33,979 bases of DNA from Deltaproteobacteria bacterium. Its GTDB lineage: Bacteria > Desulfobacterota > DSM-4660 > Desulfatiglandales > Desulfatiglandaceae. The notes under the pieces were generated by a model. That model had not been told where the DNA came from. It searched no databases and saw only the letters and a list, made by a program, of their open reading frames with translations. The position numbers and the translations under genes are program-made. The stretch is from assembly GCA_021737785.1 (NCBI GenBank), contig JAIPDI010000054.1, positions 1-33,979 on the forward strand, given 5' to 3'. Numbering within the stretch: position 1 is the first letter of the stretch; each line of letters starts with the position of its first letter. This document shows positions 8,968 through 32,229 of the stretch, one piece after another.

Positions 8968-9741
8968 CTAGGCAAGAGGATCCGGAAGGTGCCGGGCCCG
9001 CAGGCGCTGCATGCCCTGGATCCATCGCTCATAATCGTCGGCTTTGTGTCTGAGATAATCCTTTACCTGAGGATGGGGCAGGATCATGAATTGACCCCGG
9101 TCCAGGGCGACGATGAGGTCTTGGGCCACCTGCTCCGCCTCCAGCATGCCATCTAAGGCCGCAATCCCGCCCCCTTCCCGGGTCATGAGAGATCGAACCG
9201 CCATGGGACAGATGACCGATACCTGAATCCCCCGATCCCCGTAGTTGATGGCCAGATTCTCGGCCAGGCCCACCGCCGCATGTTTGGTCGCACTGTAGGG
9301 TGTCGAGTCGATCTGGTTGAGCAGGCCCGCTGCTGAGGCCGTTATGACAAATCCCCCCGACTTCCGCCGGAGCATTTCCGGGAGGACCGCCCGGGCCGCA
9401 TACACATGGGACATGACGTTGATCTCCCAGATGCGCTGCCAGTCGGCATTTGAGACCTCTATCAGCCCCATCCTGATGATGCCCGCATTGGAGCAATACA
9501 GGTCGACGAAACCGTACTCAGCTTCGGTCTGCCGAACCAGTTCCATAATGTCTTCCTCTTTGGCGACATCGCATTGCACGGCAAGACCGTTGATTTCTCC
9601 TGCCAGGGCCTGGGCCCCCTGCAGGTCGATATCAGCCACCACCACGGCCCGGGCACCCTCCCTGGAAAAGCGTCGGCACAGGGCCGCGCCGATGCCGTTG
9701 GAACCGCCTGTTACAATAATCACCTTGTCTTTGACCTGCAT
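8968..9741 (-). CDS. SDR family oxidoreductase
   Basis: This is a classical short-chain dehydrogenase/reductase of 257 residues. It has the cofactor motif T11-G-G-S-N-G-I-G18, the structural N85-A-G87, and the catalytic S136, Y149 and K153 (YSATK). An acidic residue at the end of strand 2 (VVVADIDL) suggests NAD(H) rather than NADP(H). GGAG lies 8 bases upstream of ATG 9741. It is third in the leftward order etfB-etfA-SDR, with 89 bases between it and etfA, so it probably acts in the same fatty or hydroxy acid pathway, for example oxidising a hydroxyacyl intermediate. The substrate cannot be read from sequence. Confidence 0.9.
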   Translation of the reverse strand: MQVKDKVIIVTGGSNGIGAALCRRFSREGARAVVVADIDLQGAQALAGEINGLAVQCDVAKEEDIMELVRQTEAEYGFVDLYCSNAGIIRMGLIEVSNADWQRIWEINVMSHVYAARAVLPEMLRRKSGGFVITASAAGLLNQIDSTPYSATKHAAVGLAENLAINYGDRGIQVSVICPMAVRSLMTREGGGIAALDGMLEAEQVAQDLIVALDRGQFMILPHPQVKDYLRHKADDYERWIQGMQRLRARHLPDPLA

Positions 9742-9830: not shown

Positions 9831-10862
9831 TCATTCTTCTCTTGGACTTCCCGGCACGCCGGATCGCGGGTCTTTGTTGTTGATTCGCCTGACGCAGGCA
9901 TCTTGGATCAGTGGAATGAACCGGGTGATGTCTTCCACGATACAGATGTCCGCCTCGTTGAATATGGGTGCATGGGGATCACTATTGATGGCAATAACAC
10001 ATCCGGCGCCCCGCATCCCCATCACATGCTGGGAGGCCCCGGAGATGCCGCAGGCGATGTACAGGGCCGGCGCCACAGTGGCCCCGCTGACCCCTACCTG
10101 GCGGCTGTAGCCCAGCCACCCGCGATCGCAGATGATGCGGGTGCCGGCCACGGCCGCCTTGGGCAGGCATCCGGCCAACCGGTGAGCCAGTTTGATGTTT
10201 TCCTGATTCCCGATGCCGCTGCCTACAGCCACAAGGATGGGTGCGGCCGTGATGTCGGAGACATCGGCCTTAGCGCGACTGGTTCCCAGATAGCGGGTTC
10301 TCTCGGACCTGCAGGTCGCGTTTTTTCGGATGACACATCCCGACGATGCTCCCGGCGCGGGCGTAAACTTGAAAACGCCCGGCTGAACCGAGATGATGGT
10401 GGTGGCCGTATTGGAAGCGAATAGGCCTTTGATCTTACCGCCGTATACATCTTTTTGAAAACAGATCCGTCCCTGAGACTCGGTGAGACCGTCCACGCCG
10501 CAAATGCAGCCGGCGCCGATGCGGGCGGCCACCGCCGGTGTCCATTCCCATCCCTGAGAGGTGTGGGCCGTGCACACAAAGACCGGTTTGGCGGCTGCTA
10601 TTTCTTCGGCCAGGACAGCGCCATAAGGCTCGCTGACATAGTGGGAAAGCCCGGGGCACTCGATTGCGGTCACCTGGACGCTCCCCTGATGCGCGACCTC
10701 CCGGGCCGCCGCGCCCACGTCTTGGCCCAGGATGCAGACACCGAGAGTGCCCGGCCGGAATGCTTGAAGCCTCCGGCCGAATGCAATTAAATCGTATGTT
10801 TCCGGGTGCACGCGACCGTCGGTACATATACCGATCACCATAATGTCTACGGATTCCGTCAT
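9831..10862 (-). CDS. etfA: electron transfer flavoprotein alpha subunit
   Basis: EtfA binds FAD and, with EtfB, carries electrons from acyl-CoA dehydrogenases to the membrane quinone pool or other acceptors. The 343-residue protein has the N-terminal Etf fold and a clear C-terminal FAD domain: GVSGATVAPALYIACGISGA, then QHVMGMRGAG, AINSDPHAPIFNEAD and IVEDI, which are the family's FAD contacts. There is no N-terminal ferredoxin domain, so it is not the fused long form. AGGA lies 9 bases upstream of ATG 10862. etfB lies upstream on the same strand with a 173-base gap that holds small hairpins (GAGGCT-GAA-AGCCTC at 10946-10960). The divergent acyl-CoA dehydrogenase at 12250 is the obvious electron donor. 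Confidence 0.95.
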   Translation of the reverse strand: MTESVDIMVIGICTDGRVHPETYDLIAFGRRLQAFRPGTLGVCILGQDVGAAAREVAHQGSVQVTAIECPGLSHYVSEPYGAVLAEEIAAAKPVFVCTAHTSQGWEWTPAVAARIGAGCICGVDGLTESQGRICFQKDVYGGKIKGLFASNTATTIISVQPGVFKFTPAPGASSGCVIRKNATCRSERTRYLGTSRAKADVSDITAAPILVAVGSGIGNQENIKLAHRLAGCLPKAAVAGTRIICDRGWLGYSRQVGVSGATVAPALYIACGISGASQHVMGMRGAGCVIAINSDPHAPIFNEADICIVEDITRFIPLIQDACVRRINNKDPRSGVPGSPREE

Positions 10863-11035
10863 GTGACTAAATCCTCATGAGCGAGGAATGCCCCCCCAGT
10901 GCATGAAAATGGTTCAGTGTGAGCGGCGTTCGCGCCGAGACGGTCGAGGCTGAAAGCCTCTTTGATAAAGAAAGGAGGACCTCCCCCTATTCATGTTTAT
11001 GGGTGTTCTTTCACAGCTCCGGTGAATTCTCATGA

Positions 11036-11812
11036 TTACAGAAAAGCCTTTTCCTCCAGAATCGCCGCCAGTCGCTCGGCCTTTTCCCGGGTCGAGCCCG
11101 TGAGCACCTGTGACGCACGCCTTTTCTCAGGCGCCACGAGGCCGAGACAGTCGATCGAGGCCCCCGCAGGTTCCAGTGCCTCGGTGGAAACGGTTTCCAG
11201 GCCCTGTCGATTGGCGCGTAAAAGTCTGGAAAGTGATGGATACCGGGGCCGGTTGATTCCAGGCTGGAGTGTCAGGAGGGCCGGCATCCGGATTTCCAGC
11301 ATCTCCCGAATGCCGCCTTCGATCTCTCTTTGTATAGACAGCATTGATGGGTCCGAGGCCGGTGTTATGGCAATCACCTGGGTTGCATAAGGGAGGTTCA
11401 ACCGAGCGGCCAGCATGGGGCCCACCTGCCCGTTCATGCCGTCCTCTGACATGCTGCCGCAGAGTATGAGCCGGTATTCTCTGGGTCGTGCACATTCGGC
11501 GATCCAGGAGGCAACGGCCGCAGGGCCCGGATCCGCGTCCGTGGGGGTCCGGAGATGAATGCCGGCGTCAGCCCCCATCCCGATGGGACGTTTGAGCACA
11601 TCGGCCGCCCGATCAGGACCCACCGTAATCACATCGATACGTCCCCGTGCCATCCTCTCCTTGATGCGCACCGCTTCTTCCACGGCGAATTCATCAAAGT
11701 AGTTCAGGCGGAACTCGCCGGAGATCTCCAGCGCCGGCATCCCGGAGGGATTGTTTCTGACCGAAATTCGTTCTATATCGGGAACCTGTTTGACGCAAAC
11801 GAGAATTTTCAT
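11036..11812 (-). CDS. etfB: electron transfer flavoprotein beta subunit
   Basis: EtfB forms the heterodimer with EtfA and normally binds AMP or, in bifurcating types, a second FAD. The protein starts MKILVCVKQVPDIERISV, the typical EtfB beginning, and contains NYFDEFAVEEAVRIKE, VITVGPDRAADVL, EDGMNGQVGPMLAARL and a C-terminal recognition loop region (IREMLEIRMPALLTL). ATG 11812 is preferred over the upstream in-frame ATG 11866 because homologues begin at MKI; this gives 258 residues, the usual size. GGAAGG lies about 12 bases upstream. A promoter and a TetR-type palindrome sit upstream. It is the first gene of the leftward etfB-etfA-SDR set. Confidence 0.95.
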   Translation of the reverse strand: MKILVCVKQVPDIERISVRNNPSGMPALEISGEFRLNYFDEFAVEEAVRIKERMARGRIDVITVGPDRAADVLKRPIGMGADAGIHLRTPTDADPGPAAVASWIAECARPREYRLILCGSMSEDGMNGQVGPMLAARLNLPYATQVIAITPASDPSMLSIQREIEGGIREMLEIRMPALLTLQPGINRPRYPSLSRLLRANRQGLETVSTEALEPAGASIDCLGLVAPEKRRASQVLTGSTREKAERLAAILEEKAFL

Positions 11813-11865
11813 AACCCATGTCGTCCTTCCGGAGTGCCCCCCAATACTACCCGCTATATTTGGCA

Positions 11866-11893
11866 TTTACACGGCTCCCATCGGAGCTGTCAA
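11866..11893 (-). promoter_or_regulatory. candidate etfB promoter
   Basis: On the minus strand a perfect TTGACA (11893-11888) is followed after 16 bases by TGTAAA (11871-11866), about 54 bases before the etfB start. The spacing and -35 fit a sigma-70 promoter. The -10 box is imperfect. Confidence 0.5.
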
Positions 11894-11898
11894 CAAAA

Positions 11899-11916
11899 AA
11901 CGAACGAATGTTCGTT
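11899..11916. promoter_or_regulatory. TetR-type operator palindrome
   Basis: AACGAAC-GAAT-GTTCGTT is an inverted repeat with perfect 7-base arms. It ends 5 bases upstream of the etfB -35 box and lies in the divergent region between etfB and the acyl-CoA dehydrogenase. Its size and symmetry match operators of TetR-family regulators, and a TetR gene is the second gene of the divergent set. I infer that this TetR binds here and controls one or both directions. Confidence 0.65.
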
Positions 11917-12138
11917 ATTTTTATTGACTCCGACAAACGATCTGAGTTAGGAATTGAAAAATTGAGCATGGTGCATTCTCTCTTAAATTCCAGGCATTTT
12001 GAACTTTGGAACATTATTGCCAGGTTTTCTGTCATGAAAAACAGGAAAATCCGGGTTCATCCGGTTTTTGCATACTTGTGGGTTCCAAAGGCTGGAAATG
12101 AGGGAAATGAATGATCCTTCAGCGTTTTCAGACCGATT

Positions 12139-12166
12139 CCGTCATTCCGGCATGCCGGAATGACGG
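12139..12166. repeat. 28-bp perfect palindrome (REP-like)
   Basis: A fully palindromic 28-base sequence centred on GGCATGCC (arms CCGTCATTCCGGCA and complement) lies in the 333-base leader between the operator and the acyl-CoA dehydrogenase. Palindromes built on GTCATTCCGGCATGCC are dispersed in multiple copies in various proteobacterial genomes, so this is probably a REP-like repeat, though a role in transcript folding is possible. Otherwise the stretch 11917-12249 shows only a weak plus-strand promoter candidate (TTGACT at 11924). Confidence 0.55.
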
Positions 12167-12249
12167 GACAGCACACAGGCGTTTTGGTTGCGGGCATCCG
12201 CGTTAGGCACTTCTCTTTGATAGCGGCGATGCCGCCATAGGAGCGAATT

Positions 12250-13455
12250 ATGGATTTTTCGATTTCAGAAAAGATGCAGGTTATTTTATCCATGATTGAT
12301 GAGTTCGTCATCAAGGAGTTGATCCCTCTTGAGAAGGATTATCTGGCGGGCAACATGGACGTCTTGATGCAAGCCCTGGAAGAAAAGCGGGGCATGGTCA
12401 GACAGATGGAACTCTGGGCCCCGCTCCATCCGGCCGAACTGGGGGGTATGGGGCTTCCCCTCACAGAAAGCGCCCTGGTATTTGAAGCCCTGGGCCGAAC
12501 CCCCTTGGGGCTGTATGCCTTCGGGTGTCAGGCCCCGGATGCCGGCAACATCGAAATCCTGCACAAATTCGGCACCCCGGAGCAGGTAAACGTGTTCCTG
12601 CGGCCCCTGGTGGCGGGCAAGATCCGCAGTTGCTTTTCAATGACCGAGGTGGACATGCCCGGTTCCAACCCGGTGATGATGGATACCACGGCGGTCAAGG
12701 ACGGAGAAGACTATGTCATCAATGGTCAAAAATGGTATACCTCGTCCGCGGATGGCGCCGGATTTGCCATTGTTATGGCGGTTACGGATCCGGAGGCCCC
12801 CCCCTATCTCCGGGCCAGTATGATCATTGTGCCCACCGACACCCCCGGCTTCAACCTGGTGCGCAACATACCGGTGATGGGCCACGCGGGCCAAGGGTAT
12901 TTCAGCCACGGCGAGATCCTCTATCAGAACTGCCGGGTGCCCCAAAAGAATCTCCTGGGCCAAGAAGGGCATGGATTTGTCATTGCCCAGGACCGGCTAG
13001 GCCCAGGCCGCATCCACCATTGCATGCGGTGGATCGGCATCTGCAACCGGGTGTTCGATCTCATGTGCACGCGGGCCCGGGACCGGGTCATTGCGCCCAA
13101 CCGGAAGCTGGCCGACAGGCAGCTCGTTCAGGCCATGATCGCCGATAGCGCGGCCGAGATCCAGGCCGCACGGCTGATGGTTCTCCATGCGGCCTGGAAA
13201 ATCGAACAGGTGGGGACCAAAGCGGCCCGCAAGGATATTTCCATGATCAAATTCGTGGTGGCCAATACCATGCAGCGTGTGGTGGATCGAGCCCTGCAGG
13301 TCCATGGTGGTCTTGGTATGACCGATGATACCATCATTGCCCACTTTTATGCCCATGAACGCGCCGCACGCATCTATGACGGGGTTGACGAGGTGCATAA
13401 GGTCTCGGTGGCCCGTCAGGTCATGAAGACCTACGAAAACAAGACAGTCAGATAG
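12250..13455 (+). CDS. acyl-CoA dehydrogenase, ACAD10/11-like
   Basis: This 401-residue flavoenzyme has the three-domain acyl-CoA dehydrogenase layout: an N-terminal helical domain, a middle beta domain (CFSMTEVDMPGSNP, then NGQKWYTSSADGA for FAD contacts) and a C-terminal helical domain (ALQVHGGLGMTDDT). At the catalytic base position it has Asp (D377 in IYDGVDEVHK) instead of the common Glu. This, with DEVH, is typical of the ACAD10/11 branch. Those enzymes act on 4-phosphorylated acyl-CoAs made from 4-hydroxyacyl-CoAs. AGGAGCG precedes ATG 12250. The kinase expected for such a pathway is two genes downstream, and EtfAB, the electron acceptor, is divergent. The exact substrate is inferred. 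Confidence 0.92.
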   Translation: MDFSISEKMQVILSMIDEFVIKELIPLEKDYLAGNMDVLMQALEEKRGMVRQMELWAPLHPAELGGMGLPLTESALVFEALGRTPLGLYAFGCQAPDAGNIEILHKFGTPEQVNVFLRPLVAGKIRSCFSMTEVDMPGSNPVMMDTTAVKDGEDYVINGQKWYTSSADGAGFAIVMAVTDPEAPPYLRASMIIVPTDTPGFNLVRNIPVMGHAGQGYFSHGEILYQNCRVPQKNLLGQEGHGFVIAQDRLGPGRIHHCMRWIGICNRVFDLMCTRARDRVIAPNRKLADRQLVQAMIADSAAEIQAARLMVLHAAWKIEQVGTKAARKDISMIKFVVANTMQRVVDRALQVHGGLGMTDDTIIAHFYAHERAARIYDGVDEVHKVSVARQVMKTYENKTVR

Positions 13456-13476
13456 CGGACCGTCTCCGCCTGCTCC

Positions 13477-14223
13477 TTGGATAACGCACATAATCCTGTG
13501 GAACCGATATCGATTGACGATTACCATTGCTTCAAGGCAAAGGTCGGCGCCTTTAAAGATGGCTGCTGTCTGGAGTTATTTGCCGAGCATCCCGATGTGT
13601 TCCAGATCAAGAAGGAGAGGACCATATCCAAAAATCTGGAGCGGATCTTTTCTGCGGCCCTGAAAATCAGCAATAAGAAGGGCTTCCATGCCATGAGCAT
13701 GCGCGATCTGAGCAGAGAAGCCCATTTGAGCATCGGGGCCTTGTACAACTATTTTTCCGGCAAGGAAGAATTGCTGGAGATGATGCAGCGCCATCGCCGC
13801 ACCATTACCGCACGTATCCTGGCCTCCAATATTGGGGCAGAAAAGGAGCCCCTGGCAAAGCTGCGTACCGCCATCCGGACCCACCTCTATCTGAGCGAGG
13901 CCATGCAGCCCTGGTTCTATTTTTCCTATATGGAGGCCAAGAACATCGGCCTGAAGGAACGTCGCGCTGCGGTCCAGGGTGAACTGAACACAGAGCAGAT
14001 GTTTACCGACATCATTGTTATGGGCCGTGACCAGGGCGTCTTTGTCACGGACAATTGTCAATTGACGGCCAGTCTGATCAAGGCTATGGTTCAGGACTGG
14101 TACCTGAAGCGTGCCAAGTATGCCCGGCGCCAGGTGGAGGTGGAGGCATATGCCCGCTTTCTGATCGCCTTTATAGAGAACAGTCTGGTCAACAGAGACC
14201 CCGCAACCCAGGATAAGAGGTGA
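13477..14223 (+). CDS. TetR family regulator with N-terminal extension
   Basis: The DNA-binding domain is a standard TetR helix-turn-helix at about residues 51-100: NLERIFSAALKISNKKGF, MSMRDLSREAHLSIGALYNYF, then SGKEELLEMM. The rest is helical and should bind a ligand, probably an acyl-CoA. The protein is 248 residues because about 45 residues precede the domain, including LELFAEHPDVFQIKKER, which I recall as conserved in related regulators of this lineage, so the extension is probably real. No ATG exists in this part; TTG 13477 or GTG 13498 must be the start, and neither has a good ribosome binding site. It sits 21 bases after the dehydrogenase and 7 before the kinase. The palindrome at 11899 is its likely operator. 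Confidence 0.88.
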   Translation: MDNAHNPVEPISIDDYHCFKAKVGAFKDGCCLELFAEHPDVFQIKKERTISKNLERIFSAALKISNKKGFHAMSMRDLSREAHLSIGALYNYFSGKEELLEMMQRHRRTITARILASNIGAEKEPLAKLRTAIRTHLYLSEAMQPWFYFSYMEAKNIGLKERRAAVQGELNTEQMFTDIIVMGRDQGVFVTDNCQLTASLIKAMVQDWYLKRAKYARRQVEVEAYARFLIAFIENSLVNRDPATQDKR

Positions 14224-14230
14224 AGTGCTC

Positions 14231-15298
14231 ATGGATCTTATCGATCATCCCACAGATGTCCGCAAGGGCGAGGATCTCAGCCCGGACAGGATTGAAGCAT
14301 ATCTGAAGGAGGTCATGCCGGACCTCAAGGGCCCGGTGGAGGTGCGACAGTATCCCAGCGGGGCCTCCAATCTAACCTACCTCCTTTCTTTTGACAATCG
14401 TCGGCTGGTCCTGCGCCGTCCCCCCTTCGGCACCAAGGCCGCCACGGCACACGATATGGGGCGTGAGCACAAGGTCCTTGCGGCTCTCAGCCGGCATTGG
14501 GATTATGCCCCCCGCCCCCTGATTTATTGCGAGGACGATGCCGTCATCGGCTCTCCTTTTTATATCATGGATCACCTGCGGGGCATCATTCTGCGCAAAG
14601 AGATCCCCGATGGTCTTTTCACGTCTGCGGCCCAGGTACGCCGTTTGTTCGAAAAATTTCTCAATATCCTGCACGAACTCCATTCTCTGGATTATGCGGC
14701 CATCGGTCTGCAGGATCTGGGCAGACCGGACGGATATGTGCGGCGGCAGGTGCTGGGATGGAATAAGCGCTATCGGGCGGCCCGCACCCCGGATGTGCCG
14801 GACTGTGAGTCCGTTATGGCCTGGCTGGAGGAAAAGATCCCACCTGAAACAGATCGACCGGGGATCATTCACAACGATTACAGGCTTGACAACATTGTCC
14901 TTGACCCGGCCGATCCCTTCAGGATCATCGGGGTCCTCGACTGGGAGATGTGCACCATCGGCGATCCCCTCATGGACCTGGGATGCACCCTCGGTTACTG
15001 GGTCCAGAAGGACGATCCCGAGGAGCGCCATCTGATTCGCACCATGCCCACCCACATGGACGGGGCCATGACCCGCAGGGAATTCGTGGACCTTTACGGC
15101 CGGATTTCCGGCATTCTTATGGACCGGTTTGACTTCTACTACTGCTTCGGCCTGTTTCGGCTGGCCGTGATCATTCAGCAGATCTACTACCGGTTTTATC
15201 ATGGCCAGACCCAGGACCAGCGGGCCAAGGGCTACGCCAGGGGCGTTCCTGTGCTGGAACGGGCGGCCAAAGCGGTGATCGCCCGGTCGGACCTCTAG
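14231..15298 (+). CDS. APH-type phosphotransferase, ACAD10/11 kinase-like
   Basis: This 355-residue protein belongs to the aminoglycoside phosphotransferase-like kinase family, in the branch fused to the acyl-CoA dehydrogenase domain in ACAD10 and ACAD11. Kinase features are the N-lobe SGASNLTYLLSFDNRRLVLR, the catalytic loop HNDYRLDN (H214, D216, N221) and the metal-binding LDWEMCTIGDP (D237). In mammals and in the Pseudomonas levulinate pathway (LvaA), such kinases phosphorylate the 4-hydroxyl of 4-hydroxyacyl-CoA. Separate but adjacent genes here suggest the same two-step chemistry. ATG 14231 is preferred over GTG 14225 because GAGGTGA is well spaced upstream. It is third in the set with the dehydrogenase and TetR. 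It is not expected to be an antibiotic resistance enzyme. Confidence 0.88.
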   Translation: MDLIDHPTDVRKGEDLSPDRIEAYLKEVMPDLKGPVEVRQYPSGASNLTYLLSFDNRRLVLRRPPFGTKAATAHDMGREHKVLAALSRHWDYAPRPLIYCEDDAVIGSPFYIMDHLRGIILRKEIPDGLFTSAAQVRRLFEKFLNILHELHSLDYAAIGLQDLGRPDGYVRRQVLGWNKRYRAARTPDVPDCESVMAWLEEKIPPETDRPGIIHNDYRLDNIVLDPADPFRIIGVLDWEMCTIGDPLMDLGCTLGYWVQKDDPEERHLIRTMPTHMDGAMTRREFVDLYGRISGILMDRFDFYYCFGLFRLAVIIQQIYYRFYHGQTQDQRAKGYARGVPVLERAAKAVIARSDL

Positions 15299-15464
15299 GT
15301 CTATTTCTGGAGGTCCTTATCTTACAGAAGATATCCAAAAATGTTTCTTACAGAAGAGAACAAAGGGAACGAAGAAGGGGTTGGTGAACGGCTTTTATGG
15401 TTGCAGTTCCTTTATTCCAACAGTGAGTAAAACGGATTATGTTCAGAGATTGAAGGGAAATGAA

Positions 15465-16811
15465 ATGAAACGGATTTTGACCATTGCCGGTTCCGATTCC
15501 GGGGGCGGTGCGGGCATCCAGGCGGATCTGAAGACCATCACCGTGCTGGGCGGATACGGGATGAGTGCCGTTACGGCCCTCACCGCCCAGAACACCCTGG
15601 GCGTTCAGGGGGTGCATCCCGTACCCATTGATTTCATCCAGCTGCAGATGGCATCGGTCCTTTCCGATTACGGCGCCGATGCTGCAAAAACGGGGATGCT
15701 GGCGACGCCCGAGATTGTCATGGCCGTGGCCGAATCATTGAAAAAGTACCGGGTGGAGTGCCTGGTGGTGGACCCGGTGATGGTGTCCAAGGGTGGAGAT
15801 GTGCTTCTGTCTGAAGCGGCACGGGTGGCGGTGAAGGAAGTGCTTCTGCCCATGGCCCGCATGGTAACTCCCAATCTTTCCGAGGCATCCGATTTCTGCG
15901 GATTTCCCGTGACGGACCTGGATTCCATGAAAGCGGCGGCCGGAAAGATCCACCAGATGGGATGTCCCTTTGTCCTGGTCAAAGGGGGGCACCTGGAAGG
16001 GGATGCCGTGGACCTCCTTTTTGATGGGGAAAATTTTCAGACCTTCAGTGCCCCACGGCTTCACAATCAAAATACTCACGGCACGGGATGCACACTTTCC
16101 GCGGCCCTGGCGACATTATTGGCCCAGGGGTTACCAGTTCCCCAGGCGGTGGGGAAGGCCAAGAAATTCACTACCCGCGCCATTGCCCTGGGGCTCGACC
16201 TCGGGTCAGGGCATGGTCCCACCAACCATTATGCCCACGTCCTCTTGTGGAAGGAGCGTGAAAATGTGCTACAGGAGCTTCAAGAGGCCCTGGAGCGGTT
16301 GCGCGGTCATCCTGTGGGAGGATTGATTCCGGAAGTCCGCTCCAACCTGGCCTATGGATTGCCCGGGGCCATGGACCTGGAGGAGATTGCCGCGGTTCCG
16401 GGCCGGATCTCCCAGGTGGGAAAGAGGATTTCGGTCTGCCGCGATCCTGCTTTCGGCGTCTCCCGGCATATGGCCGGGGTGGTGCTGGCCGCCATGAGGA
16501 AGGATCCACTCCTCCGGTCCGCCATGAACATCCGTCACTCCGAAAAAATCCTCTCGGTCTGTCAGGACCTGGGGCTTGGTGTGGCTTATTTCGATAGGAG
16601 GGAGGAGCCGGAAGACATCAAGGCAAAGGAAGGGTTGACGCTGGAGTGGGGAACCCTTCGGGCCTTGAAGGGGCTTGATCAGGGTGCGGATGTGGTCTAT
16701 GATCTTGGGGAGAGGGGCAAAGAGCCGATGCTCCGGGTGCTGGGGCGGAACCCCGGAGAGGTTGTGGACAAGGTGCTCAGGATCGGAAAGGCCTGTGAAA
16801 GCGCATCGTAA
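15465..16811 (+). CDS. thiD: ThiD-ThiN fusion, thiamine biosynthesis
   Basis: The first 265 or so residues are hydroxymethylpyrimidine/phosphomethylpyrimidine kinase Thi[43 protein letters not shown] and the [12 protein letters not shown] anion-hole motif. It phosphorylates HMP and HMP-P. The remaining 180 residues are a ThiN domain ([48 protein letters not shown]), which replaces ThiE as thiamine-phosphate synthase in archaea and some bacteria. Total length is 448 residues. ATG 15465 has GAAGGGAAA just upstream, and ThiD proteins start at [12 protein letters not shown]; the longer frame from 15381 is unlikely. I see no TPP riboswitch in the 166-base leader. tpx follows after 79 bases. Confidence 0.93.
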
Positions 16812-26457: not shown

Positions 26458-27735
26458 TCACAGGGTGTCCAACGGACTGACCACACCCATCGGCCCCTTG
26501 TTGAAGACGTGGGTGTAAATCATCGTAGTAGAGACGTCCGCATGGCCGAGGAGTTCCTGAACGGTTCGGATGTCCTGGCCGGCTTCCAACAAATGGGTTG
26601 CAAAGCAATGTCTGAGCGTGTGAGGGCTAACACGAGACGTGATGGCTGCCCGGGTCGCGGCCCGTTTGACCGCGCGCTGCACCCGAACCTGGTGAAGGTG
26701 ATGCCGGCGCCGGGTGCGGGTACGGGGATCTACGGAGTAATCGTCACCAGCAAAAACAAATTGCCATCTCCATTCGTAAGGCGCATTGGGGTACTTCCGG
26801 GCCAAAGCATCGGGGAGTTCGACTTCGTGCATCCCCTTTTTGCGGTCTTCTACATATTGGTGTCGCCGGCCGTCCAGATGTTGATGCAGTTCAGCTTTGA
26901 GGGATGCGGGGAAAGGGACCCTTCGATCCTTATCCCCTTTTCCAGCCCTTACCGTGATTTCGTTACGGTCAAACGCCAAATCCTGAATCCGGAGCCTCAG
27001 TGCCTCAGAGATCCGCATTCCGGTGCCGTAAATCAAACGGGCAATCAAACCCTCCACGCCGTCCATTTGCGACAAAAGCGCCTGCACTTCCTGGCGGCCA
27101 AGCACGATCGGAAGACGCTTCGGACGGCGGGCACGCGGGAGGTCACTGAAATCTCCAAGATCCTTTTTCACCACCTTGCGGTATAGAAAGACAATGGCAT
27201 TCAGCGCCTGGTTCTGTGTGCTGGCTGCGACACGGTCGTTAATCGCCAGATGACTCAGAAATTGATGAATTTCAACCCCGCCCATACTGGAAGGCCGCTT
27301 CCCCCGATGAGAACCCACGAAGCGCCGGATCCATTGAAGGTATGCCTGTTCAGTTCTCAACGAATAGTGTTCCGTGCGCAGGGCCGTCCGAACGGCTTCC
27401 TCCAGCTTACCCATGTCCGTTTTCTGGTCCGGCGTTCCTTTTTGCGAATTCGGCACAGGCGAAGATTTATCAAGGGCACGAGGTCCCGCTATTCGATTCG
27501 CCCTCTTGGTCGTCCCCTTTTCTCGGACCGCCCCGGCGGCCATTGTCTCCGAAGATTCCAGTGCTATTCCGCGAAACTGCTCGTAATAGATCTCCAAGGC
27601 ATCTCTTGCCTGGGAGACCTGCCAGTCCGCCACACCATTTTGCGAAGCCAGACCTTGGATAAAGGTCTCGATTTCCCCCCGGCCAAATCCTCGCCGGTGT
27701 TTGGCCTTCTCTTGCCGGCTAAAGAATTGGCGCAC
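26458..27735 (-). CDS. intI: integron integrase IntI (open part, catalytic core)
   Basis: This 425-residue tyrosine recombinase has all catalytic residues: R241 (GTGMRISEALRLR), K266, H372-x2-R375 (SPHTLRHCFATHLLEAG), H398 (LGHADVSTT) and Y407 (MIYTHV). The N-terminal core-binding part reads TEHYSLRTEQAYLQWIRRFV and VAASTQNQALNAIVFLYR. The stretch ALARKYPNAPYEWRWQFVF (about 310-328) is the extra helix region found only in integron integrases. About 108 residues precede the core domain. GTG 27735 is the only start after an in-frame TGA at 27736-27738. The frame continues through that TGA into 43 more protein-like codons, so the natural protein is probably 469 residues and this copy is interrupted. 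The core could still be made by reinitiation. Confidence 0.9.
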   Translation of the reverse strand: MRQFFSRQEKAKHRRGFGRGEIETFIQGLASQNGVADWQVSQARDALEIYYEQFRGIALESSETMAAGAVREKGTTKRANRIAGPRALDKSSPVPNSQKGTPDQKTDMGKLEEAVRTALRTEHYSLRTEQAYLQWIRRFVGSHRGKRPSSMGGVEIHQFLSHLAINDRVAASTQNQALNAIVFLYRKVVKKDLGDFSDLPRARRPKRLPIVLGRQEVQALLSQMDGVEGLIARLIYGTGMRISEALRLRIQDLAFDRNEITVRAGKGDKDRRVPFPASLKAELHQHLDGRRHQYVEDRKKGMHEVELPDALARKYPNAPYEWRWQFVFAGDDYSVDPRTRTRRRHHLHQVRVQRAVKRAATRAAITSRVSPHTLRHCFATHLLEAGQDIRTVQELLGHADVSTTMIYTHVFNKGPMGVVSPLDTL

Positions 27736-31018: not shown

Positions 31019-32229
31019 AAAAGCAGGTTAATTCATATAAAATGGCTTATGCTGCCTGACGAACTACATCCAGGAAATGGAGCAAATCTTTCCTGACAGC
31101 TTTGTTTGCACTCATGGTGAGGGTGAGTTCTCCTTGAGGGCGGGTGAGGCGGCCTGCTCGCTGAATAAAGCGATGCCTCAAGCTATCAAGAGTATTGAAT
31201 TCCCAAGCCGCTGGTCGTTTGGGACGGGCTCTCCTCTGGACGGGAGGCTTTGCGAGCATCTGTATTTCTTTGGATAAATTGTGAGCCATCATAGCGCAAA
31301 GGGTATATATTTGATTCCTGGCCAGCGTTCGGGTTGCAATAACATTCAGGCCGCAGTCTCCTTTTGCATCTCCGAAGATGGCTTCCTGGGAACCCCGCCC
31401 ATTATGGAATTGAACCACGGCCTTGGTTGATTCAGTTTTGTTCGTTACAATGACTTTGTAGTCGAAATTGAAATCACGTGGCTCAAATAGATGTAACTGC
31501 AGGGGACCCTTATGTTGTTTTCGAGCCTTCTTTCTGATCAAAATGAATCGGTAGTGGGTATCCCACGATTTTGGTTTCCATTTGGTCTCAAAGTAGGACC
31601 ACTCACGGTCAATAGTTCTCCACCGTTTTCGCTGTTCGATCCGGTCCTTGAGCTCCGGGAATCGTTCAAAAGGAACAGAGGCTGAAAACTTGATATGCTG
31701 ACCGCCGATGCTGCTCAGAATGTCCTTGCTGAAAAAGGCTGAATCCATCCTGGACTCAAGGGTGACGCCTTCAAGTTCATGTCGCGCTTTTTTGAAACAG
31801 TTGATCATGAATCCGGCAGCGCCATTGGAATCGTGAACGTTTCCAGGGCGATGATGCATGTCGAAAAACTGGTGTGTTTGTGCCACCGTACAAAATAGGG
31901 GGTAATAACTGCGACTCCCCTTTTTCTGTTTGTTGAAGCCAACGGCAGTGCCCTCAGCGTGCCCTTTTGTCGTCAGGACTGAACCATCGAAGTCCAACGT
32001 CAATCTGGGCAATGCCTCCCGTTTCAGGCTTTCGATAACAAGTGTACGGGAAAGATCTCTCACATTCTCAACCCCATCGTCTTCCATTTGAGCGAGGGAT
32101 CTGGAGATCGTAGAAACATCCGGCAATTTTCGGAGGCCCATCAGACGAAGCACCAGAGGGTCATCCCGATAATAATCAACCTCACGTAGTCGACGAAATC
32201 CAAGCAGGAGGTGCATAATAAGAAGCCTA
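31019..32229 (-). mobile_element. IS1380-like insertion sequence remnant
   Basis: The element sits in reverse orientation between cassette 4 and a broken cassette. Its 3' side is close to position 31019, where cassette 4 ends abruptly without attC. Its 5' side ends near 32229, inside both the transposase N-terminus and another gene. No matching terminal inverted repeats could be found, as expected if one end was deleted. Confidence 0.6.
31047..32216 (-). CDS. IS1380 family transposase, N-terminally truncated
   Basis: This DDE transposase of 389 residues carries the IS1380 family signatures: first Asp in RLTLDFDGSVLTTKG, then the GFNKQKKGSRSYYPLFCT and RPGNVHDSNGAAGF blocks, second Asp in ESRMDSAFFSKDIL and Glu in GRGSQEAIFGDAKGDCGLN. 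Family members usually have some 45-60 more residues at the N-terminus. Here an in-frame TGA lies seven codons before ATG 32216 and the upstream DNA belongs to another gene, so the start of the transposase is missing. Transposition activity is doubtful. Confidence 0.85.
   Translation of the reverse strand: MHLLLGFRRLREVDYYRDDPLVLRLMGLRKLPDVSTISRSLAQMEDDGVENVRDLSRTLVIESLKREALPRLTLDFDGSVLTTKGHAEGTAVGFNKQKKGSRSYYPLFCTVAQTHQFFDMHHRPGNVHDSNGAAGFMINCFKKARHELEGVTLESRMDSAFFSKDILSSIGGQHIKFSASVPFERFPELKDRIEQRKRWRTIDREWSYFETKWKPKSWDTHYRFILIRKKARKQHKGPLQLHLFEPRDFNFDYKVIVTNKTESTKAVVQFHNGRGSQEAIFGDAKGDCGLNVIATRTLARNQIYTLCAMMAHNLSKEIQMLAKPPVQRRARPKRPAAWEFNTLDSLRHRFIQRAGRLTRPQGELTLTMSANKAVRKDLLHFLDVVRQAA

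Follow-up and report, generated by a model that had tools for sequence, protein, structure and literature searches.

In mammals, ACAD10 and ACAD11 are fusions of a kinase with an acyl-CoA dehydrogenase (ACAD; PDB 8v3u, 8v3v, 2wbi), and their chemistry, phosphorylation by the kinase and elimination of the phosphate with flavin 'rebound', has been described only recently. No electron acceptor is needed (PMC11342911, PMC12440821); the ACAD step requires a redox-active FAD, for which flavin rebound is proposed (PMC12440821), the characterised enzymes give the hydride back to the substrate (PMC11342911, PMC12440821), and the exact mechanism is called unclear by the authors (PMC12440821). The Pseudomonas lva systems (LvaA/LvaC of P. 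putida, and P. citronellolis) have, by description, a separate kinase and ACAD and a short-chain dehydrogenase/reductase (SDR). Here we describe a locus of this known kind in a window of 33,979 bases (the whole stretch of DNA that was analysed), part of a 5.33-Mb deltaproteobacterial genome of 96 contigs with a given completeness of 100%. The reading of its two central enzymes as a kinase and a phosphate-eliminating ACAD is well supported by sequence comparison; the locus as a whole is probably a TetR-controlled, two-armed catabolic module for 4-hydroxyacyl-CoAs, with an electron-transfer flavoprotein (ETF) in its second arm.

Features of the locus, with position and strand in the window:
8968-9741, minus strand: SDR oxidoreductase (adh_short, E 7.4e-45), downstream of etfA
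9831-10862, minus strand: EtfA, large ETF subunit (Pfam ETF_alpha and ETF domains)
11036-11812, minus strand: EtfB, small ETF subunit (Pfam ETF); start inferred, the open reading frame (ORF) reaching 11866
11899-11916, no strand: palindrome AACGAAC-GAAT-GTTCGTT, predicted TetR operator, 86 bp upstream of the etfB start
12250-13455, plus strand: ACAD10/11-type acyl-CoA dehydrogenase, predicted 4-phosphoacyl-CoA lyase/isomerase (Pfam ACAD domains)
13477-14223, plus strand: TetR-family regulator (TetR_N, E 5.3e-14), between ACAD and kinase
14225-15298, plus strand: APH-type kinase, predicted 4-hydroxyacyl-CoA kinase (Pfam APH, E 2.3e-53)

The ACAD-TetR-kinase arm is divergent from the etfB-etfA-SDR arm. 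The EtfB start is most likely at 11812 (MKILVCVKQVP...), the point from which its PDB alignments run; the true start of TetR probably lies well inside its ORF, since the helix-turn-helix begins at residue 57. An earlier note, made from the letters of this DNA, had described a split ACAD10/11-like kinase and dehydrogenase with divergent etfBA and an SDR. The genes were recovered at or near the places that it gave, the SDR lying just outside its span, with TetR as the sole gene between kinase and ACAD, and the type that it proposed is borne out by sequence, residues, tree and fold, as follows.

Among sequences of known structure, the window ACAD is nearest to 4hr3 of M. abscessus, its best match, and to ACAD11 (E 1e-77 to 1e-81), the next ACAD following at 8e-45. 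Its predicted structure (mean pLDDT 89.2) gives fold Z scores of 51.4 with 4hr3, 50.1 with 2wbi and 49.8 with 8v3u; the next ACAD entry stands at 42.4. Residues R249, R254, H257, R260 and D377 of the window protein align with R626, R631, H634, R637 and D753 of mouse ACAD11. There, the 4-phosphate is held by R626, H634 and R637, D753 serves as the base, and R631 is a residue shared among ACADs; D377 does therefore occupy the base position assigned to it earlier. In ACAD11, the ACAD step suffered most when R626, H634 or R637 was replaced by alanine/leucine (PMC12440821). Residues were compared in 62 ACAD10/11-type rows (14 of the 'home' clade, that of the window, 24 'mid', and 24 'canonical', among them 4hr3 and mouse ACAD11) and in 14 ordinary ACADs (13 of the 27 other ACAD matches of the own genome, and one from genome G015); the 60 locus rows had been picked from 108 matches of at least 36% identity, many of them duplicates. 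The R/H/R/D set (R626/H634/R637/D753) is kept in 62/62 related rows vs 0/14 ordinary ACADs, and the catalytic Asp in place of Glu is distributed likewise (62/62 and 0/14).

In a tree of these 76 rows, in which long outgroup branches meet, the 62 ACAD10/11-type rows are split from the ordinary ACADs at 100/100; placement among ordinary beta-oxidation enzymes, which the earlier note had held incompatible with its reading, was thus not what was found. The 14 home rows form a single clade (100/100) that joins 19 rows of Hydrogenedentota, Bacteroidota and Chloroflexota (99/99). Another 22 rows make up a clade of their own (100/100): ACAD11, 4hr3 and rows of Acidobacteriota, Pseudomonadota, Myxococcota and Bacteroidota, together with a second ACAD/kinase type of the home family. 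An ordinary beta-oxidation ACAD with a Glu base is ruled out by D377, the phosphate residues and the tree. The generic Pfam names would suit such an enzyme adjoining an unrelated aminoglycoside-phosphotransferase-like gene, but the ACAD10/11-specific residues, the tree placement and the conserved pairing described below refute this explanation at the sequence level, and we give it next to no credence.

Identity to mouse ACAD11 is 38% for the window ACAD and 52-57% for the four canonical rows compared; the base motif of the window protein is IYDG vs LADG of ACAD11. The window ACAD is best described, on alignment and tree, as a member of the wider ACAD10/11 type in a sister subfamily of the characterised one. 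Three changes are fixed in the home clade: E54 (G in 47/48 others), V134 (P in 47/48) and Y163 (F/W in 47/48). In the alignment, Y163 matches the aromatic position of the K-x-W/F motif; from this and from the medium-chain enzyme MCAD, we take it to correspond to the aromatic residue that lies near the flavin in ordinary ACADs. LvaC, reported at 62% and 56% identity to ACAD10/11 (PMC11342911), would by these published values be of the canonical type; the tree was built from the 76 rows above, LvaC not among them.

The window kinase is nearest to PDB 9o56 (E 1e-91) and 3dxp, entered as 'aminoglycoside phosphotransferase' / 'putative acyl-CoA dehydrogenase', and to the ACAD11 kinase domain (1e-47); a paper naming 9o56 was not found in the literature search. 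Its predicted structure (mean pLDDT 93.1) is nearest in fold to 3dxp, then to 25-hydroxy steroid kinases and Rv3168; the ACAD11 kinase domain compares over a shorter stretch (Z 20.3). D218, N223, R80 and R174 correspond to mouse ACAD11 D220, N225, R86 and R176, a set kept in 99/99 rows; overall, the window kinase is 32% identical to mouse ACAD11. With mammalian ACAD10 and ACAD11 the locus thus shares both domains, the catalytic Asp pair, the R/H/R residues for the 4-phosphate, the CoA-site arginines of the kinase and the ACAD fold (Z ~50); it differs in having two separate proteins, in its sister-clade position, in IYDG and in a dedicated ETF.

The fold neighbours raise the question of another hydroxylated CoA ester or alcohol as substrate, for instance the side chain of a terpenoid or steroid, by analogy with the Sterolibacterium 25-hydroxy steroid kinase. 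That enzyme (9ft5, Z 26.8; 9fsg, Z 25.6) resembles the window kinase in fold and in its logic of phosphorylation followed by elimination, and a kinase with an unknown lyase has been described for a tertiary alcohol (PMC8449060). Its substrate is, however, not a CoA ester, its lyase is unknown, and its sequence match is weak (E 1e-12 with 9fsg, vs 1e-47 for ACAD11 and 1e-91 for 9o56), by which the window kinase was rejected as a 25-hydroxy steroid kinase; R86 and R176, which are modelled as holding the CoA moiety, are retained, and the partner ACAD carries the 4-phosphoacyl-CoA residue set. A substrate of this sort therefore appears improbable.

ACAD and kinase stand side by side in relatives of several phyla. 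Among 46 genomes of the home family, an ACAD ortholog (at least 68% identity) is found in 14 and a kinase ortholog (at least 45%) in 12, and the pairing exceeds chance, because all 12 kinase-bearing genomes fall within the 14 ACAD-bearing ones. In G015, an ordinary-type ACAD (29% identity) comes after the kinase ortholog (L033:256-2681), and the ACAD ortholog with its ETF sits on another contig, L063.

Gene content, residues, phylogeny and conserved linkage were observed here directly; the reaction of the window enzymes is most likely that of their characterised homologues. By this analogy, the kinase would transfer the phosphate of ATP to the C4 hydroxyl of a 4-hydroxyacyl-CoA. D377 of the ACAD would remove the C2 proton, with the hydride parked on FAD; the C4 phosphate, held by R249, H257 and R260, would be expelled, and the hydride given back, yielding a 2-enoyl-CoA for beta-oxidation. 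In the second arm, a module-specific ETF would handle electrons of acyl-CoA oxidation in the same induced pathway, its partner being most likely either the module ACAD itself or a beta-oxidation ACAD acting on the product. On this view, the module is sister to the ACAD10/11 and LvaA/LvaC systems, diverged from them and split over separate genes. We consider this whole, both arms with the TetR control, likely to be correct. Several points weigh against it. The identity of 38% to mouse ACAD11 and the fixed E54, V134 and Y163 could go with a differing reaction, and we know of no measured activity for any member of the home clade. The reported chemistry needs no ETF, so that a conserved one is unexplained by the core reaction; and neither an acyl-CoA ligase nor a lactonase was found in the window.

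The ETF is truly linked to the module, being inherited with the ACAD. EtfB or EtfA lies within 2.5 kb of the ACAD in 14/15 home loci, 0/26 mid loci and 1/31 canonical loci (1/57 outside the home clade), after loci with neither 2.5 kb of upstream sequence nor a match had been dropped (5/31 mid, 3/34 canonical). The home exception, L065 (G026), has 6.4 kb upstream of its ACAD and no ETF there, and carries the E54/V134/Y163 changes nonetheless. The 14 locus EtfBs form one clade vs 7 own-genome paralogs, and the 14 locus EtfAs one clade vs 5 (100/100 each). Distances among the ACADs correlate with those among the EtfBs and the EtfAs (Mantel r 0.73 and 0.76, n=13), and likewise with those among the kinases (r 0.68, n=10), correlations that common descent would also yield. 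In the 46 family genomes, locus-type EtfB (at least 45% identity to the L028 copy, a limit chosen after the score gap had been seen) and ACAD occur together in 13, ACAD alone in 1 (G026), EtfB alone in 1 (G033) and neither in 31 (Fisher P 2e-9, uncorrected for shared ancestry); the contig of G033 ends 174 bases past the gene, which makes this case uninformative. From the locus linkage, the separate clade, the co-occurrence and the palindrome discussed below, the ETF is probably also induced together with the module. Besides two ACAD10/11 papers by title, nothing on a link between ACAD10/11 and ETF was among the literature matches listed.

In sequence, the neighbours of the ETF are mixed: EtfA is nearest to ETFs of bifurcating complexes (e.g. 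5ol2, 6fah), EtfB to those of the 1efv and 1o94 types. The locus is thus like the Bcd-Etf (5ol2), caffeyl-CoA reductase-Etf (6fah) and acryloyl-CoA reductase complexes in EtfA, and differs from them in EtfB and in an ACAD of another subfamily. An acryloyl-CoA reductase complex (AcrABC) was ruled out, the scores with all three NCBIfam models being far under the cut-offs (193.9/640, 159.8/600 and 84.6/475).

What the ETF does, we infer. The earlier note had given the dehydrogenase an EtfAB of its own: its linkage to the module stands, but its use as the electron sink of the dehydrogenase is not supported, the reported chemistry being redox-neutral (PMC11342911, PMC12440821). With the same kinase/ACAD chemistry, the co-induced ETF might serve only an ordinary beta-oxidation ACAD elsewhere and never the module ACAD, an explanation to be taken seriously even if we would not quite back it. 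Neither ACAD10 nor ACAD11 requires an acceptor for turnover; 27 further ACAD matches exist in the own genome; and L028 and L068 each encode, at a distance of a few kb, an ordinary ACAD, a thiolase and a FadJ-like protein (the L028 set checked with Pfam). In L035 (3790-7540), a canonical ACAD11-type ACAD/kinase pair of the home family is divergent from an ordinary ACAD followed by EtfB-EtfA, which is an independent ETF association. On the other side, an ordinary ACAD is absent from the ETF arm of the window, the module ACAD is the sole ACAD common to all 14 ETF-bearing home loci, clades with the same residues have no ETF beside the ACAD (the mid loci above), and the fixed E54, V134 and Y163 set the home clade apart.

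The V134 (P to V) and Y163 (F/W to Y) changes map to the branch that carries the ETF association; this coincidence, all on one branch, is suggestive only. It would go with an ETF that takes the hydride from the module ACAD, the bolder form of the reading in which the two work together. In an oxidative version, 4-phosphoacyl-CoA would give 2,4-dienoyl-CoA, phosphate and two electrons for the ETF; in a rescue version, the ETF would free a flavin stranded as FADH2 after an aborted turnover, oxygen being unavailable. We regard either as possible but doubtful. An ETF serving a beta-oxidation ACAD that acts on the product is somewhat more likely than one working with the module ACAD.

Another 8 home loci also have a TetR in this position. 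A palindrome like that of the window, AACGAACGAATGTTCGTT, lies 76-168 bp upstream of etfB in 9/15 home loci, counting the window, from which the motif was taken. With two loci on cut contigs left out, it is present in 8/9 loci with TetR and 0/4 without (P 0.007); no site was found in L068 despite its TetR, nor in L062, L063, L065, L026 and L027. The genome contains the core pattern CGAACNNNNGTTCG at 4 places, a number not above that of its reversed control, and the case for an operator therefore rests on position and on co-occurrence with TetR, from which the palindrome at 11899-11916 is predicted to be the site at which TetR acts. It is contained in a small ORF (11818-12114), the sole one between etfB and ACAD. 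A perfect 24-base palindrome, GTCATTCCGGCATGCCGGAATGAC, at 12141-12164 in the same gap resembles a dispersed repeat.

Further genes accompany the module in relatives. A histidine phosphatase (His_Phos_1) is part of it in 7/15 home loci, between etfB and ACAD:
L062, 4020-4730: histidine phosphatase
L028, 1893-2606: histidine phosphatase
L029, 9702-10412: histidine phosphatase
L032, 3148-3876: histidine phosphatase
L064, 7354-8127: histidine phosphatase
L068, 6201-6908: histidine phosphatase
L072, 7205-7945: histidine phosphatase

Next to the kinase, the same type also occurs in 12 further loci (11 with the label Acidobacteria, one Betaproteobacteria), in 11 Bacteroidota loci and in Paraglaciecola; annotated ACAD, SDR, phosphotransferase and histidine phosphatase are found on plasmids of Pseudoalteromonas CuT4-3 and Ideonella dechloratans. 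The copy of L062 found no match in the genome of the window, in a search run without a positive control. The histidine phosphatase may be a counterpart of the HAD domain of ACAD10. The levulinate cluster of P. citronellolis LA18 is described with an LvaA-like kinase, a histidine phosphatase replacing LvaB, and LvaC- and LvaD-like proteins (PMC6692424). The earlier note had seen no LvaB-like small partner; such a gene is indeed not evident in the module, as judged without comparison to an LvaB sequence, but its absence carries little weight, because the levulinate-induced P. citronellolis cluster, in the description available, has the histidine phosphatase instead (PMC6692424). Aneurinibacillus has a gene of the 2-phosphosulpholactate-phosphatase family downstream of the kinase, immediately next to it in L142 (11006-11764) and past a further ACAD-type gene in L147 (12285-13043); by family, this is another phosphatase type adjoining the kinase.

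In L029 (G010) the order of the arm is ACAD-TetR-kinase-CoA ligase-3-hydroxyacyl-CoA dehydrogenase (3HCDH), and a phosphotriesterase-like gene (12416-13402; E ~1e-120 to DR0930) directly follows etfA. The DR0930-type phosphotriesterase-like group is reported to have lactonase activity (PMC4338136). This gene is present in 1/46 family genomes, and is therefore a hint for the G010 relative only. For an amidohydrolase that follows TetR in L064, no matching PDB chain was found at E 1e-8. The ligase, 3HCDH, thiolase and lactonase-family neighbours of some relatives fit 4-hydroxy acids/lactones, and to this extent the 4-hydroxy fatty acids or gamma-lactones named by the earlier note are upheld; none of these neighbours was found in the window.

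Levulinate in particular is not indicated. A levulinate/gamma-valerolactone pathway proper, as an lva operon of a sulfate reducer, would account for the kinase, ACAD and SDR, present as in the Pseudomonas clusters, and for the occurrence in relatives of the histidine phosphatase kind found in P. citronellolis. The module and flanking window ORFs that were scanned, however, yielded no CoA ligase, LvaF/LvaG-like transporter or sigma54-type regulator; TetR is present instead of the sigma54-type regulator, and with the ETF sets the module apart from the lva clusters as described. The SDR is retained in just 3/15 home loci, the window counted, its copies (76% and 87% identical) standing at the same place in L025/L072 and L067, the closest relatives only. 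We think an lva operon in this sense unlikely by a wide measure. Plasmid searches returned relatives, and no record labelled lva was among the matches listed.

By kinase, the nearest named relatives are metagenome-assembled genomes of uncultured Thermodesulfobacteriota/Deltaproteobacteria. In profile searches of the host genome, dsrA scores above the model cut-off and a COX1 match was not found, and an anaerobic, sulfate-reducer-like lifestyle is therefore likely, in line with the anaerobe assumed by the earlier note. Directly downstream of the kinase, on the same strand, lies a ThiD-ThiN fusion (Phos_pyr_kin and ThiN; 15381-16811) with no sign of belonging to the module; the last third of the window is mobile, with a phage-type integrase (26458-27735) and a DDE transposase (31047-32216).

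The enzyme pair represents a new subfamily of an already known kind, by which the pathway would be extended to a sulfate-reducer-like anaerobe and, in the sister clade, to Hydrogenedentota, Bacteroidota and Chloroflexota; the recurrent histidine phosphatase beside the kinase is a further candidate part of the system. What specialists would find surprising is the dedicated ETF, since the core reaction needs no outside electron acceptor. A lineage that ties an ACAD10/11-type enzyme to its own ETF would offer a direct handle on the fate of the flavin electrons, and raises the question of whether the hydride is always returned or is able to leave.

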